46,590 bases of DNA from Actinomycetota bacterium. Its GTDB lineage: Bacteria; Actinomycetota; CADDZG01; WHSQ01. The stretch covers positions 1 to 46,590 of the forward strand of contig WHSQ01000023.1 in assembly GCA_009380005.1 (NCBI GenBank), given 5' to 3'. The notes under the pieces are model-generated. The model saw only the letters and a list, made by a program, of their open reading frames with translations, did not search any database and was not told where the DNA came from. Positions 4,217 through 13,560 of the stretch are shown here, piece by piece; position 1 is the first letter of the stretch, and the number at the start of each line of letters is the position of its first letter. The position numbers and the translations under genes are program-made.

Positions 4217-4258
4217 GATCTGCTACGCGTGAGATTATGTCGTCGAAGGGGGCTCTTG

Positions 4259-5275
4259 ATGACGGAGCGAGGCGTCTCGGACAAACTCGGTCGGCCGCTC
4301 CGAGATCTCAGGATCTCGGTGACAGACCGATGCAACTTTCGCTGCACCTACTGCATGCCGAAGGAGGTCTTCGGCCACGAGTACCAGTTCATGGAGCGGG
4401 CCGAGCTGCTCACCTTCGAAGAGATCGAACGCCTCAGCCGGATCTTCGTTTCCCACGGCGTGGGCAAGGTCCGTCTCACCGGCGGAGAGCCTCTGATCCG
4501 ACGCGATGTGGACCGTCTCGTGGAGATGCTCGCCCGGATACCGGAGATCTCCGATCTCGCGATCACCACCAACGCCTCGCTGCTGGCGTCCAAAGCACAG
4601 AGGCTGAAGGAGGCGGGACTTAGGCGTGTGACCGTCAGCCTCGATGCTCTGGATGACGAAACCTTCAGCGCGATCAACGACGTGGGCTTTCCCGTGGCTC
4701 GGGTACTCGAGGGTATCGAAGAGGCGGCCCAAGTCGGCCTGGGCCCGGTCAAGATCAACTGCGTGGTGAAACGGGGTGTGAACGAGCACGCGGTCCTCGA
4801 CCTGGCCCATCATTTCCGAGGCACCGGTCACATAGTCCGGTTCATCGAATACATGGACGTGGGTACGAGCAACGGGTGGCGCCTCGATGATGTCGTTCCC
4901 GCGCGCGAGATCGTCACGAAGATCCAGGCGGAGATGCCCATCGAGCCCGTTGGCAAGAACTACACGGGAGAGGTCGCCGAACGGTACAGGTATGCCGATG
5001 GATCCGGCGAGATCGGGATCATCGCGTCGGTGACGCAGCCGTTCTGTCAGGCCTGCACTCGGGCACGATTGTCGGCCGACGGGAAGCTGTTCACCTGCCT
5101 TTTCGCTTCTATCGGGCACGACTTGCGGGCGCTATTGAGGAACGGGACTTCGGACGAAGAGATCCACGACGAGATCGGGCGTATCTGGGGTAGGCGTGAT
5201 GATCGCTATTCGGAGATCCGCTCCTCGCAGACCGAGTCTCTGCCACGGGTCGAGATGTCCTACATCGGAGGATGA
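4259..5275 (+). CDS. moaA: GTP 3',8-cyclase MoaA (molybdenum cofactor synthesis)
   Basis: MoaA is a radical-SAM enzyme that, with MoaC, converts GTP to cyclic pyranopterin monophosphate, the first step of molybdenum cofactor synthesis. With the ATG at 4259 the protein has 338 residues. The radical-SAM cluster cysteines are Cys25, Cys29 and Cys32 (CNFRCTYC), and the second 4Fe-4S cluster is held by Cys263, Cys266 and Cys280. The protein ends in IGG, matching the conserved C-terminal GG. This ATG is chosen because a G-rich ribosome site lies just upstream (about 4246-4252); a GTG at 4229 would add ten non-conserved residues. It overlaps the DUF971 gene by 4 nt (ATGA). moaC, moaD/E and moeA are not in the window. 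Confidence 0.94.
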
Positions 5276-6676: not shown

Positions 6677-6829
6677 CCCTTCCCCCAATCAATACAAGCA
6701 AATCTGCATTCGCCTCATCCGGCGGAGCGAAGCCAGAAGTGTAATATGCAAAATCGAAATGGTGGTCTTTGAGTAGACGAAGGGCCGCTGCTCGGGGCCG
6801 CCCCTATGAACAGGGGGGGATGGGTCGCC

Positions 6830-9800
6830 GTGGAACTCACTCGTCGAGACTTCTTCAAGCTGTCCGCCGCCGGAGGTGCCGGGGCCGCGTGGGCGGCGTT
6901 CGGTTTCGACATGGAGCCCGCTTACGCCCAGGTTCGAGAGCTCAAGATCTCACGTGCCACCGAGGTGCGTTCCGTGTGTCCTTACTGTGCGGTGGGCTGT
7001 TCGATGATCGCCTACGTCACGGGACACGAATCCTTCAACACGACTCCCCATCTCGTTCACATCGAGGGCGATCCCGATAGCCCGATCAACGGCGGATCCC
7101 TCTGCCCCAAAGGGGCCAGCACGATGCAGCTCGCCGTCAACTCGAATCGGGTCAAGTCTCCGATGTACAGGGAGCCCGGAGCCAGTGAATGGCAGGAGAT
7201 CTCGTGGGAAGACGCGCTGGATCGCCTCGCGCGTCTGATGAAGGATGCGCGCGACGAGCGTTTCGTCGATAAGGATGACGAGGGCAACACCGTCAACCGC
7301 AACGAAGGCTTCGCCTGGGTCGGCGGAGCCACCATCTCCAATGAAGAGGGTTACCTGACCACCAAGATGTTCCGTGCCCTCGGGTGCGTGGGATTGGAGC
7401 AACAAGCCCGGGTTTGACACGGCCCCACGGTGGCCAGTTTGGCCGCCTCGTTTGGCCGGGGGGCCATGACCAATCACTGGGTCGATTGGAAGAACTCCGA
7501 CGTCTTCATCGTTATCGGAGCGAATCCGGCGGAGAATCATCCTTGCGGGTGGAAATGGGCCCACGTCGCACGCGACACGCGCGGGGCCAAGATCATCCAC
7601 CTCGATCCTCGCTACACCCGTACTTCGGCGGTCTCGGACATCTGGGCACCGATCCGCGCCGGCACCGACACAGCCTTCTTCGCAGGACTCATCAATTATG
7701 TGCTGGAGAACGAGCTCTATCACGAGGAGTACGTAAAACTCCACACGAACGCGTCATTCATCCTGTCCGAGGACTTCGAGTTCAACGACGGATTGTTCTC
7801 CGGCTACGACGAGGACACGCGCGGCTACGACACGACATCCTGGTCGTACGAGGCTGAGCCCGCGACCGACCAGCCGCCTCCCGGCTTGGCGCAGGCGGCT
7901 CAGAAGACGAGCGATAGCCCGACCAATGCCAGGCGCGACCCGAGCTTGAAGCACCCGCGCTCGGTATTCCAGTTCCTCAAGCGCCATTACGCACGCTACA
8001 CACCCGAGATCGTCTCCAAAGTCACCGGGATCCCCGAGGACAAGTTCCTCGAGATAGCCGAGATCATGGGATCCACCGGTACCGCAGACCGGGCCGGCAA
8101 CGTGGTGTACGCAGTGGGTCTTACGCATCACACCATGGGCGGGCAGATGATCCGAGGGATCGCCGTCCTCCAGCTGTTGCTGGGCAACGTGGGGAAACCC
8201 GGAGGAGGCGTCAACGCCGAGCGCGGGCATGCCAATATCCAAGGCAACACCGACAACGCCCAGTCGTGGGAGATCCTCCCCGGCTACCTGCGGGTGCCCC
8301 AGGTCGGCCAGGAGACCCTTGCGCAGTACGTCGAAGAGAATGCCTCCACGAAGTCTGCGGCGAACTCCCTCAATTTCTTCGGCTCCATGTACAAGAACTT
8401 CATGGTCAGTCTGCTCAAGGCGTGGTTCGGAGATGCAGCCCAGAAGGAGAACGATTTCGGCTACGCATGGCTCCCGAAGCCCGATAAGAACTGGTCGTGG
8501 ATGACGATCCACGATGAGGCGCGGGCCGGGCGGCTCCACGGTCTCTTCAACGGCGGGATGTCGAGCGTCAACATCGGCCCGGACTCCAACCGCATCATCG
8601 AGTCGCTGTCGAACCTCAAATGGTTCGTCGTCATGGATCCGCTGCCGACGGCCTCGTCCGACTTCTGGCGCGGCCCGGGTATCGATCCGGAGCAGGTGCA
8701 GACAGAGGTGTTCTTCCTCCCCACGACCCACTGGATCGAGAAGTCTGGGGCGTTCACCAACTCCGGCCGTTGGGCGCAATGGAAGCATGCAGCGCTTCCC
8801 GCGGAGTCGGGGATCCGGGACGACAGCTACATCCTGGCCCAGCTCTTCTCGCGCTTGCGGGCGCTGTATGAGGAGGAAGGCGGTCCGCACCCCGAGCCCA
8901 TCGTCAATCTGAGCTGGCCGTACACAAATCCCGACAACCCGCCTCTGGAGGAGCTGTCCAGGGAGATCAACGGGAAGGACCTGACGACGGGCCTTCAGCT
9001 GTCCAGCTTCGTCGACTCCAAGGACGACGGCTCCACGAGCCAGGGCAATTGGATCTACACGGGCTCTTACACCGAAGAAGGCAACATGATGGACCGGCGC
9101 GGTACCGATGATCCGACCGGCATGGGCTTCTTCCATAACTGGGCGTGGTCGTGGCCGGCGAACCGCCGGGTTCTCTACAACCGGGCGTCCGCAGACGCCA
9201 AGGGGGAGCCGTGGGATCCATCCCGGCCCGGTATCAGGTGGAGCGGAAGCTCGTGGGTGGGAGATGTTCCCGACTTCCCAGCCGATTCCGACCCGAAGGA
9301 GGATGTCGGGTCCTTCATCATGACCGGCGAGGGCGTGGGGCGGCTCTTCGCGCCCGCAAGCCTGATGCGGGACGGCCCCGTGCCGGAGCACTACGAACCG
9401 CAGGAGTCGCCGATCGAGAACCTGCTCAGCTCGACGCGTAACGATCCCGCGACGATCATCTACGAGGGAGCCGCTGCCAGCTTCGCGGAGGACGACAGCG
9501 AGTTTCCCTATGTCGCAACGACCTATCGAGTAACCGAACACGAGCATTTCGTCACGCAGCACGTGCCCTTCCTGGTCGAGGCGATGCCGGACTTCTTCAT
9601 CGAGCTCCCGGTGCAACTCGCCGAGGAGAAAGGCATCGAGAACACCGACATGGTGAAGGTGCGCTCCAAGCGCGGCGAGGTCGTCGGCGTGGCGCTGGTA
9701 ACCAAGCGCATGCGTCCGATCAAGATCGGAGACGGGAAGGTCGTGTACCAGGTGGGGATCCCCGTCCACTGGCACTACGCGGGCGGAACGGGGAAGGGTA

Positions 9801-9901
9801 AAGCCGCTCAGATGGCGAATCTGCTGTCGCCTTATATCGGTGATGCCACGGTCAACACCCCCGAGTTCAAGGGGTTCCTCGTCGACATCGAGAAGGCGTG
9901 A
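6830..9901 (+). CDS. fdnG: Formate dehydrogenase catalytic subunit, selenocysteine-containing, Tat-exported
   Basis: This is the large molybdopterin subunit of a membrane-associated formate dehydrogenase (FdnG/FdoG type), which oxidises formate to CO2. The frame is interrupted only by TGA at 7415-7417, within QQARV-U-HGPTVASL. This is the position of the catalytic Sec, followed by the invariant His, so the TGA is read as selenocysteine. With the GTG start at 6830, Sec is residue 196, as in E. coli FdnG, and total length is about 1023 residues against about 1015. A Tat signal (TRRDFFK at 4-10, AYA at 31-33) and 4Fe-4S ligands Cys50, Cys53, Cys57 and Cys92 are visible. AGGGGGGGA at 6812-6820 supports 6830; an ATG at 6806 is the alternative. 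A conventional gene caller would split it into 6806-7417 and 7430-9901. Confidence 0.93.
7415..7465 (+). promoter_or_regulatory. Selenocysteine TGA codon and SECIS-like hairpin
   Basis: The TGA codon at 7415-7417 is followed within the coding sequence by a two-part stem. The lower stem pairs 7421-7426 with 7460-7465 (GGCCCC/GGGGCC). The apical stem pairs 7429-7435 with 7441-7447 (GGTGGCC/GGCCGCC, one G-U) around the loop AGTTT. The apical stem starts 11 nt after the TGA, close to the spacing of bacterial SECIS elements bound by SelB. The hairpin also encodes conserved formate dehydrogenase residues, so part of the pairing could be incidental; folding and comparison with homologues would decide. 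Confidence 0.75.
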
Positions 9902-9913
9902 GGGGGGAGAGGG

Positions 9914-10903
9914 ATGGCAACCGAACTAGGCCTGGCCGTCAGACGGAAGTCGGCCACACCGACCTCCTCGACCAGCATCCGCCGCGACAGCATCGAGGTC
10001 TCGAAGCTCGTCGACATCGATCTCTGCATCGGATGCAAAGCGTGTGAGATCGCTTGTAAGGAATGGAACGACCTCGAGGTAGAAGAGACCCACAACTTCG
10101 GCGGTTACCAGAGCCACGAGGACCTCACACCGGATACATGGGACCTGATGCGTTTCAACGAGGTGGATCTCGAAGATGGAGGGATCGCCTGGCTGATCCG
10201 CAAGGATTCGTGTCTTCACTGCGAAGAGCCGGGGTGCCTGCTGGCGTGCCCGGCCCCTGGAGCCATCGTTCAGTACGAGAACGGGATCGTCGACTTCGAT
10301 CAGGAGAAGTGCATCGGGTGCCAGTACTGTATCGCCGGCTGCCCCTTCGACATCCCGCGCTTCGATACCGAGACGAAGAAGGTCTACAAGTGCACCTTGT
10401 GCGTCGATCGGGTTTCCAACGCACTCGAACCGGCTTGTGTCAAGGCATGTCCCACCGGGTCGATCAGGTTCGGGACCAAAGAGGCCATGCAGGAGTACGG
10501 CAAAGAAAAGGTAGGGAAACTCCAGGACAGGGGTTTCGAGGACGCTCTGCTCTATGACCCGGAGGGCGTCAAGGGCCTCCACATGATGTACGTGGTCCCA
10601 CGCGGCGAGATGCTCGAGGAATACGGGCTTCCCAAAGATCCAACCGTTACGTCCAAGCTCGGCTTCTTCCCGGCGATGGGCGCTCTGAGGAAGCTCGGTT
10701 CCGGTGCGATGTGGGCCGGCCTGTTGGGCTCCGCGCTGTTCTTCCTGCGCACTGGGCGCAGGTTCCCACCACCTGAGGAAGAGGCGGTCGCCGCGGCACG
10801 CTCGAAGGGGAGTGAGGCGCCCGGAGAACGTACAGATGCTGCGACCCGCCACGATGCCGACGACTCGCTCGACCCGGGTTCTGAAGGAGACGGTCATGCT
10901 TAG
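9914..10903 (+). CDS. fdnH: Formate dehydrogenase iron-sulfur (beta) subunit
   Basis: This 329-residue four-cluster ferredoxin-like subunit passes electrons from the catalytic subunit to the membrane cytochrome. Cysteine groups in order are CIGCKACEIAC (Cys38, 41, 44, 48), CLHCEEPGCLLAC, CIGCQYCIAGC, and CTLC followed by ACVKAC. Together they are enough for four 4Fe-4S clusters, as in FdnH. A C-terminal hydrophobic helix (GAMWAGLLGSALFFL, about residues 266-280) would anchor it to the membrane, followed by a hydrophilic, acidic tail longer than usual. It starts 12 nt after the catalytic subunit and overlaps the cytochrome gene by 8 nt. It has no signal peptide of its own and would be exported with the Tat-bearing partner. 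Confidence 0.93.
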   Translation: MATELGLAVRRKSATPTSSTSIRRDSIEVSKLVDIDLCIGCKACEIACKEWNDLEVEETHNFGGYQSHEDLTPDTWDLMRFNEVDLEDGGIAWLIRKDSCLHCEEPGCLLACPAPGAIVQYENGIVDFDQEKCIGCQYCIAGCPFDIPRFDTETKKVYKCTLCVDRVSNALEPACVKACPTGSIRFGTKEAMQEYGKEKVGKLQDRGFEDALLYDPEGVKGLHMMYVVPRGEMLEEYGLPKDPTVTSKLGFFPAMGALRKLGSGAMWAGLLGSALFFLRTGRRFPPPEEEAVAAARSKGSEAPGERTDAATRHDADDSLDPGSEGDGHA

Positions 10904-11537
10904 AGAGCACGATCCTGAGCGCGACATCGTCCGTTACTCGCTTGCGGATCGGGTGGCCCACTGGTGGGTGTCCCTGACGTTCATCTACCTGCTTCTTTCC
11001 GGGCTGGCCTTGGGCTACCCGCGCATGGCGTGGCTCTATCAGATCCTGGGAGGCGGTCAGACCGTTCGTTTCCTGCATCCATGGGTGGGCGTTGCCTTCA
11101 CACTGGGCATCTTCTACATGTTGTTCGCGTGGGTGCGCGACATGACGTTCGATCCCGTCGACCGCGAGTGGGCCCGGAGCCTGGGCACCTACTCCAAAGA
11201 AGGACACGTCGATCTGGACGTGGGTCGTTACAACGCCGGCCAGAAGGGCTACTACTGGTTCGCCGTCCTCACCGGGGTCCTGTTGCTGCTGACCGGGATA
11301 CCGATCTGGATCCCGTCCTTGCTGAGCTCCGGGTGGAACCAGGCCGCCCGGATCATCCACCACGTCCTCTTCCTCCTTACCGTCGGCGGCTTCATCATCC
11401 ACGTCTACATGTCCACCGCGATGTTCCCGGGGACGATCCGGGGCATGACGACCGGACGGGTGGAGCGGAGGTGGGCGGCATTCCACCACCCGAGGTGGTT
11501 CCGGGACCGCGACGCGCGCGGGACGCGCTTAGGGTGA
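10896..11537 (+). CDS. fdnI: Formate dehydrogenase cytochrome b (gamma) subunit
   Basis: This 213-residue di-heme b-type cytochrome anchors the formate dehydrogenase and delivers electrons to quinone. Four membrane helices are visible, with candidate heme ligands in DRVAHWW, FLHPWVG and the last helices (IIHHVLF, GGFIIHVYM). The start is the ATG at 10896 with AAGGAGA at about 10884-10890. The same frame stays open upstream to 10704, but that part lies over the beta subunit and looks like a shadow. The stop overlaps the GTG of fdhE by 4 nt. Its presence makes the complex an FDH-N/FDH-O type, with formate oxidised on the outer face, rather than a soluble cytoplasmic enzyme. Confidence 0.92.
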   Translation: MLREHDPERDIVRYSLADRVAHWWVSLTFIYLLLSGLALGYPRMAWLYQILGGGQTVRFLHPWVGVAFTLGIFYMLFAWVRDMTFDPVDREWARSLGTYSKEGHVDLDVGRYNAGQKGYYWFAVLTGVLLLLTGIPIWIPSLLSSGWNQAARIIHHVLFLLTVGGFIIHVYMSTAMFPGTIRGMTTGRVERRWAAFHHPRWFRDRDARGTRLG

Positions 11538-12397
11538 AACATCCGAGCGCCGGCCCCGGCGACTTCGAGCGCCGGCTGGAGAGGGCTCGGTCGATCGAAG
11601 CGGCTGATGCCGCGGCCCAGCCTCTAGCGTTCTTGGTGCGGGTCCTCACGCATCAGCTTCGGCGCTCTGCAGAGCCTGCGGTTCGCGAGGCTGCCGCGCG
11701 GACTGCGGAGGATGCCCTCCCCAACAGGCTCGTGCAGCAGTACCCCCTGTTGGATCTGACGAGTGCCGCCGCCCCGATCGCCGGCGAGACGCAGGCTGCC
11801 GTGGAGGAGTTGGGAGACGCTGCACCTGGTCCGCTGCGGGAAGCCGGGTTGTCCCTCGTCGCACGTTCCGAGATGGAGCAACGGGAGCTGGTGGAGGCCT
11901 GGCTCGACGACACCTCGTTGCTCGATCCCCGTCTGGCGCTCTGGATCAGGGTGACGGCCGGACCGATACTGGAGCTCGCCGCGGCGCGTTCTGAGCCGCC
12001 CGAGAAGGAAGAATGGACGGGGCTGGCATGTCCACTGTGCGGCGACGCCCCCCAGTGCTCGGTGATAGTGGAAGAGTCGGGCGCCTTCCTGCAGGGATCG
12101 CCGCGCTATCTCGTATGCGGGCGCTGCGCGGGGTGGTGGGACTTTCCTCGCGCCAAGTGTCCTACGTGCGGCGAGGATGACTCGCGGAAGATCTCCCCGT
12201 ACGCGGCGGAGGACTGGCCGTGGGCTCGCATAGACGTCTGTGAGGCGTGCCGCGGCTACATCAAGACATTCGATCTGCGGGAGAAGGGAGCGATGAAGGT
12301 CGTGCCCCTCGTCGACGACGTGGCGACCCTGGCGCTGGACGTGTGGGCTCACGAGCAGGGTCTGACTCGCCAAGGGTTGTCCCTGGCGGGGGTGTGA
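11534..12397 (+). CDS. fdhE: Formate dehydrogenase accessory protein FdhE
   Basis: FdhE is a cytoplasmic rubredoxin-like protein needed for assembly or quality control of Tat-exported formate dehydrogenases before export. The 287-residue product has an alpha-helical N-terminal half. Its C-terminal half holds metal-type CxxC pairs: CPLC, CGRC, CPTC and CEAC, between about residues 165 and 245, followed by GYIKTFDLR. This matches the FdhE family layout. The GTG at 11534 overlaps the cytochrome b stop (GTGA). The frame runs open further upstream across the cytochrome gene, but that part has no FdhE similarity. Its position directly after the structural genes fits an enzyme-specific maturation role. 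Confidence 0.9.
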   Translation: MKHPSAGPGDFERRLERARSIEAADAAAQPLAFLVRVLTHQLRRSAEPAVREAAARTAEDALPNRLVQQYPLLDLTSAAAPIAGETQAAVEELGDAAPGPLREAGLSLVARSEMEQRELVEAWLDDTSLLDPRLALWIRVTAGPILELAAARSEPPEKEEWTGLACPLCGDAPQCSVIVEESGAFLQGSPRYLVCGRCAGWWDFPRAKCPTCGEDDSRKISPYAAEDWPWARIDVCEACRGYIKTFDLREKGAMKVVPLVDDVATLALDVWAHEQGLTRQGLSLAGV

Positions 12398-12408
12398 ACG
12401 GAAAAGCC

Positions 12409-12678
12409 ATGGCCGACTTCCTAGAAGAGTTCGCCGCCGCGTTGGATGGACGATTGGGCACCGGTCCGGATGCAGCCCTCTCCCGCGAGCTCAAGAACCC
12501 GCTGCTCGATCTAGCGCGCGTGGTCGCGCACTCGACCGAGCGCAAGAACGCTCCGTTGGCCACGTTCATCGCCGGGCGTTACGTAGAACTTCGTCGTGCC
12601 CAGGGTGCGGACGACATGACCGCGATCGGTGAAGTCGCCGAGGCCGCGGAAAAGCTGCTCCCTGCGGAGGGGGATTAG
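12409..12678 (+). CDS. DUF6457 domain protein (molybdenum cofactor-linked)
   Basis: This small 89-residue helical protein begins MADFLEEFAAALDGRLG and has the internal stretch LLDLARVVAHSTERKNAPLATF, which I recognise as DUF6457. From memory, this domain is common in actinobacteria as a stand-alone protein or fused to MobA-like nucleotidyltransferases and lies near formate dehydrogenase genes; that is recall, not a database result. A GTG at 12394, overlapping the fdhE stop as GTGA, would add five residues. The stop codon directly abuts the fdhD ATG, so translation is tightly coupled to the two maturation factors. A role in cofactor loading or chaperoning is inferred from this position only. 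Confidence 0.7.
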   Translation: MADFLEEFAAALDGRLGTGPDAALSRELKNPLLDLARVVAHSTERKNAPLATFIAGRYVELRRAQGADDMTAIGEVAEAAEKLLPAEGD

Positions 12679-13560
12679 ATGGCCCGGCGTCCCGGGAGCC
12701 GTGTGCGGGCCAAGATACGGGTCATCGAGGATTCCTCCCAAGCGGCGCGCTCCGATTACCTGGCTACTGAGGAACCCCTCGAGGTCAGGCTCGCCGCCGG
12801 GGCCGAGAGGAAGACCATCGCCGTCACCATGCGCACTCCGGGATCGGATTTCGAGCTTGCCGTCGGGTTCTTGTTCTCCGAAGGCATCCTCGCCGCGGGG
12901 GAGGATGTTCTGAGCATCCGCTATTGCACCGATCCCGATGTCGACGCCGAACAGCAATACAACATCGTCACGGTTGAACTGAACGCACGCTCACTCCCCG
13001 ACCTCAAAAGCCTGGAGCGCCACTTTTACACGTCGAGTGCGTGCGGCGTCTGCGGCAAGGCGACCCTTGAATCGCTGGAGCTGCGCGGCTGCCCGGTCAT
13101 CACCGGAGGCCCGCGCGTACCTGCCCATCTTCTGTATTCGCTCCCCGACAGACTGCGCGCCGCCCAGGGAGTTTTCGAGTCGACTGGGGGTTTACACGCC
13201 GCAGGCCTGTTCGATGCCGCGGGGGACCTGATCTGCGTACGAGAGGACGTGGGTCGTCACAACGCGATCGACAAGCTCGTCGGGTGGGCGTTGCTCGCCG
13301 GCCGCTTACCGTTGCACGATTGCATCGTGGTGGTGAGCGGACGCGCGAGCTACGAGATCATGCAGAAATGCCTCGTTGCCGGGGTGCCCATCGTCTGCGC
13401 CGTCTCCGCACCTTCGAGTCTCGCAACCTCAGTCGCGGAGAGCTTCGGGATGACCCTCGTAGGGTTCCTTAGAGGCCAGAGATTCAACGTCTACGCGGGG
13501 CAGGAGCGCGTAGTGACCGAAAGCGATGTGCTCACGGGACCGGTTGTAGCCGAGCCGTGA
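12679..13560 (+). CDS. fdhD: Formate dehydrogenase sulfurtransferase FdhD
   Basis: FdhD moves sulfur from the cysteine desulfurase IscS to the molybdenum cofactor, creating the sulfido ligand required for formate dehydrogenase activity. The 293-residue protein shows the conserved EEPLEVR segment (31-37), the catalytic loop SACGVCG with Cys122 and Cys125, GLHAAGLFD, the VREDVGRHNAIDKL block and SGRASYEI. All are standard for FdhD and the length is normal. It is the last gene of the run fdnG-fdnH-fdnI-fdhE-DUF6457-fdhD, all rightward with overlaps or very short gaps except the first, consistent with one operon covering synthesis and maturation of the enzyme. Confidence 0.94.
   Translation: MARRPGSRVRAKIRVIEDSSQAARSDYLATEEPLEVRLAAGAERKTIAVTMRTPGSDFELAVGFLFSEGILAAGEDVLSIRYCTDPDVDAEQQYNIVTVELNARSLPDLKSLERHFYTSSACGVCGKATLESLELRGCPVITGGPRVPAHLLYSLPDRLRAAQGVFESTGGLHAAGLFDAAGDLICVREDVGRHNAIDKLVGWALLAGRLPLHDCIVVVSGRASYEIMQKCLVAGVPIVCAVSAPSSLATSVAESFGMTLVGFLRGQRFNVYAGQERVVTESDVLTGPVVAEP

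Follow-up and report, generated by a model that had tools for sequence, protein, structure and literature searches.

The window analysed here, a stretch of 46,590 nucleotides, carries on its forward strand a cluster of genes in the order fdnG-fdnH-fdnI-fdhE-DUF6457-fdhD, of which fdnG is the first. This cluster is a full formate dehydrogenase N (FDH-N) operon. The features of the locus are the following:

4229-5275, + strand: moaA, molybdenum cofactor biosynthesis, upstream of the operon (TIGR02666, 387.5 bits)
6830-9901, + strand: fdnG-type formate dehydrogenase alpha subunit, predicted selenocysteine (Sec) at residue 196 (TIGR01553, 1KQF_A)
7412-7470, + strand: bacterial SECIS element, Rfam SECIS_3 (RF01989), matched over its full length (1-59 of 59; 65 bits, gathering score 63)
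7415-7417, + strand: TGA codon, predicted to be read as Sec
7421-7426, + strand: 5' arm of the lower stem in the predicted fold, pairing with 7460-7465
7429-7447, + strand: apical SECIS hairpin of 7 bp with loop AGUUU (8 bp if the A and U of the loop close)
7460-7465, + strand: 3' arm of the lower stem
9914-10903, + strand: fdnH, formate dehydrogenase beta subunit, 4Fe-4S (TIGR01582, 375.6 bits, cut-off 334.7)
10896-11537, + strand: fdnI, formate dehydrogenase gamma subunit, cytochrome b (TIGR01583, 182.4 bits, cut-off 115.85; PF01292)
about 11534-12397, + strand: divergent fdhE-like accessory protein (the longer open reading frame 10964-12397 passes the cut-offs of PF24860 and PF24859)
12247-12678, + strand: DUF6457 protein between fdhE and fdhD, start codon uncertain (PF20058, 44.2 bits)
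12679-13560, + strand: fdhD, formate dehydrogenase accessory sulfurtransferase (NF001943, 316.2 bits, cut-off 269)

The fdhE-like protein scored 63 bits against TIGR01562, which is below the cut-off of that model. The long fdhE frame at 10964-12397 that is produced by plain ORF calling was rejected as spurious, its N-terminal part overlapping the gamma subunit in another frame. The DUF6457 protein is a possible accessory factor. Further upstream, positions 9-2682 of the window encode an ABC system for metal uptake, with a ZnuA-like binding protein, an ATPase and a permease, and then a Fur-family regulator.

The fdnG frame starts with GTG at 6830 and encodes 1,023 residues if the internal TGA is read as Sec. 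Only two stops occur in this frame, namely the internal TGA at codon 196, which is followed by 827 open codons, and the terminal TGA at codon 1024. An alternative in-frame ATG is present at 6806, in which case Sec would be residue 204. The third-position G+C content is 75% before the TGA and 84% after it, and high values on both sides fit a single coding gene. The predicted N-terminus is Tat-like (RRDFFK), and the residues around the TGA read QARV-Sec-HGPTVASLAASFGR. The conceptual protein matched TIGR01553 (formate dehydrogenase-N alpha) over residues 3-1022 with 1290.9 bits against a cut-off of 814.2, and chain A of PDB entry 1KQF, the Escherichia coli FdnG, over residues 2-1023 (E=0). In the latter alignment the TGA falls on the X that denotes the Sec of 1KQF, which is likewise residue 196. 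The original prediction had placed an in-frame TGA at the active-site Sec position and, with the GTG start, Sec at residue 196 as in E. coli; both statements agree with this alignment. Judged from the sequence, the region 6830-9901 almost certainly encodes a Sec-containing FDH-N alpha subunit in which UGA at codon 196 is inserted as Sec.

As had been anticipated, plain ORF calling breaks fdnG into two frames, 6806-7417 and 7430-9901. Taken at face value, this split would yield two separate proteins, a fragment of 195 residues and a protein of 823 residues starting from GTG 7430. We regard this as exceedingly improbable, since the break would separate the Fe-S cluster region from the remainder of a single catalytic unit, whole-length models match straight across it, and codon conservation downstream of the TGA reflects the hairpin. 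For annotation, this means that one selenoprotein of 1,023 residues should be called rather than two fragments.

The TGA in this frame could also stem from a sequencing error or from a nonsense mutation, the gene then being a misread Cys enzyme or a pseudogene, and it is true that the window derives from a fragmented draft assembly. However, TGA was found at the Sec site in all 15 homologues in which this site was readable (seven FDH-N enzymes and eight of a second type), and TGC or TGT in none. These homologues come from other assemblies, among them named records of Nitriliruptorales, Acidimicrobiia, Acidobacteria and Chloroflexi. An error or nonsense mutation is already refuted by this conservation of the TGA across independent assemblies, and the long open frame downstream of the TGA, the matching SECIS and the presence of all sel genes likewise argue against it; we consider the chance that it applies to be very slight.

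Eleven bases (7418-7428) separate the TGA from the apical stem, which pairs 7429-7435 with 7441-7447 (7 bp; loop AGTTT in the DNA). The apical hairpin alone has a predicted energy of -13.4 kcal/mol (z -4.0), which was matched by none of 200 shuffles, whereas the whole stretch of 59 nt was only mildly more stable than its shuffles (z -1.4). The lower stem of 6 bp is also present in the predicted fold. Bacterial SECIS rules ask for a loop of 3-9 nt, an upper stem of 4-16 bp, a G at loop position 1 or 2, a distance of 16-37 nt from the UGA and an energy of at most -7.5 kcal/mol (PMC13188914). The hairpin conforms to all of these, with a loop of 5 nt, a stem of 7 bp, a G at loop position 2, and a location 18 nt after the UGA at the above energy. 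The Rfam SECIS_3 score lies just 2 bits above the gathering cut-off. Folding of the region and comparison with known bacterial SECIS elements, as had been proposed, thus recovered the expected structure.

The pairing was then assessed in 16 sequences, in which the apical stem was paired in 95.5% of the cells and the lower stem in 77%. The two-stem hairpin originally described, with 7 bp in the apical and 6 bp in the lower stem at 11 nt from the TGA, therefore stands as far as both stems form, but the lower stem had been given too much weight. Within the whole SECIS structure of these sequences, 31 cells had changed on both sides, as compared to 15.7 in shuffles. The covariation was highest at zero slide, with lower values for all slid versions, and covarying pairs are present in the apical stem. 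It should be noted that this covariation largely separates the two enzyme types and thus counts as few evolutionary events. In each type separately, codon identity at conserved residues peaked in codon windows starting at or beside the TGA codon (0.76 versus 0.59 and 0.73 versus 0.54; one-sided p-values of about 0.02 each, and of 0.046 for the first type without two near-identical Acidobacteria sequences).

The original prediction had further implied a Sec pathway, while noting that sel genes are absent from the window. Indeed, the proposed search of the genome detected every component in the same assembly, on contigs other than that of the window and each above its curated cut-off: a tRNA-Sec on contig C277 (84.5 bits, cut-off 47) to which ARAGORN assigned the anticodon TCA (UCA), selA (538.8 bits) and selB (340.7 bits, with SelB winged-helix domains) on C33, and selD (386.4 bits) on C77. 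The sequence GGCACK identifies the selD product as the Cys form. The TGA, the conserved hairpin and the full operon are thus accompanied by a selA, selB, selC and selD set in one assembly, a draft of 639 contigs with an estimated contamination of 1.43%. A second selB-like match (G000:C22), which with 196.8 bits stayed below cut-off, turned out to be EF-Tu translated beyond its stop codon; it lies beside fusA and ribosomal protein genes. Between selA and selB (region 2995-7854 of L059, G000:C33), on the same strand and overlapping the end of selA, lies a gene for a PucR-type HTH regulator, which may regulate the Sec genes.

These components also bear on the view that the UGA is recoded other than as Sec, through reassignment of UGA or general read-through. 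Such recoding is hardly credible, because the gene's own terminal stop is TGA, the genome has a tRNA-Sec (anticodon TCA) along with the Sec machinery, and the codon lies opposite a Sec known from a crystal structure. A covariance model built from the 16 SECIS sequences did not find a second such SECIS in the genome (next match with E 2.1; 150 of 5,369 first-look candidates were scored), and the one further molybdopterin oxidoreductase detected there (C628) had no internal stop.

The tRNA-Sec scored above cut-off in 16 of 24 searched genomes of the class, and the Sec trait is therefore widespread in the class to which the window belongs. Three of the 10 class members with this enzyme family (G004, G007 and G023) had no detected tRNA-Sec, which probably reflects incomplete assemblies. 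Conversely, nine genomes (G002, G005, G009, G012, G014, G016 and G019-G021) have a tRNA-Sec and no close dehydrogenase homologue at E 1e-60, and they therefore probably hold other selenoproteins.

SelB loaded with Sec-tRNA-Sec and GTP would bind the hairpin immediately 3' of the UGA and deliver Sec at codon 196 instead of termination. With its Tat-like signal, the product would be exported together with the Fe-S beta subunit, and the cytochrome b gamma subunit would anchor the exported enzyme, which, by analogy with its family, would then oxidise formate on the outer side of the membrane and pass the electrons to the quinone pool. We infer the read-through, export and activity of FdnG.

The closest named homologues of the window protein belong to Nitriliruptorales, Acidimicrobiia and an Actinomycetota bin; a literature search found no report of Sec in Acidimicrobiia. 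The contig of the Actinomycetota bin (L022) opens with sequence identical to that of a contig of G013, which belongs to the same family as the window, and this supports the view that the host is an actinobacterium. Among the relatives compared for dehydrogenase type (G001, G003, G004, G007, G010, G013, G022 and G023), most of those with a Sec formate dehydrogenase carry the second type, whereas the window genome carries FDH-N; G013 has both. The second type is likely NF041513 ('formate_DH_Act'). This distribution points to gene transfer or to the differential loss of two Sec enzymes.

The TGA-containing feature is real, correctly identified and ordinary. In bacterial surveys no selenoprotein family is more widespread than FdhA, and by 2006 Actinobacteria had been listed among the phyla rich in selenoproteins (PMC1794560; PMC5029168); the enzyme is therefore a Sec formate dehydrogenase of a well-known kind, with nothing new in its mechanism. 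For an actinobacterial lineage that has been poorly sampled, the finding adds a complete Sec pathway together with a Sec FDH-N operon. The window protein shares with E. coli FdnG (PDB 1KQF) full-length homology, Sec at the same residue, a Tat-like N-terminus and partner beta and gamma subunits. In contrast to the E. coli system, the cluster continues with fdhE, the DUF6457 gene and fdhD, and the apical stem of the SECIS lacks a bulged nucleotide. The second-type enzymes of other family and class members have the same Sec position, the same hairpin layout and a covaried stem, but are just 39-50% identical to the window protein, which is closer to Acidobacteria and Chloroflexi homologues (56%). 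Lastly, although the UGA and hairpin match SECIS_3 over its full length, the loop is AGUUU rather than AGUCU, and the U at column 20 (alignment A1), which is bulged in that model, is invariant and can pair with G or A both here and in the relatives. We tentatively consider, while thinking it rather doubtful, that the SECIS subtype of this lineage swaps the bulged uridine for a U·G or U-A pair and that SelB would read mainly the G-U of the loop. If true, a paired-U subtype would represent a small variation in SelB-SECIS recognition.
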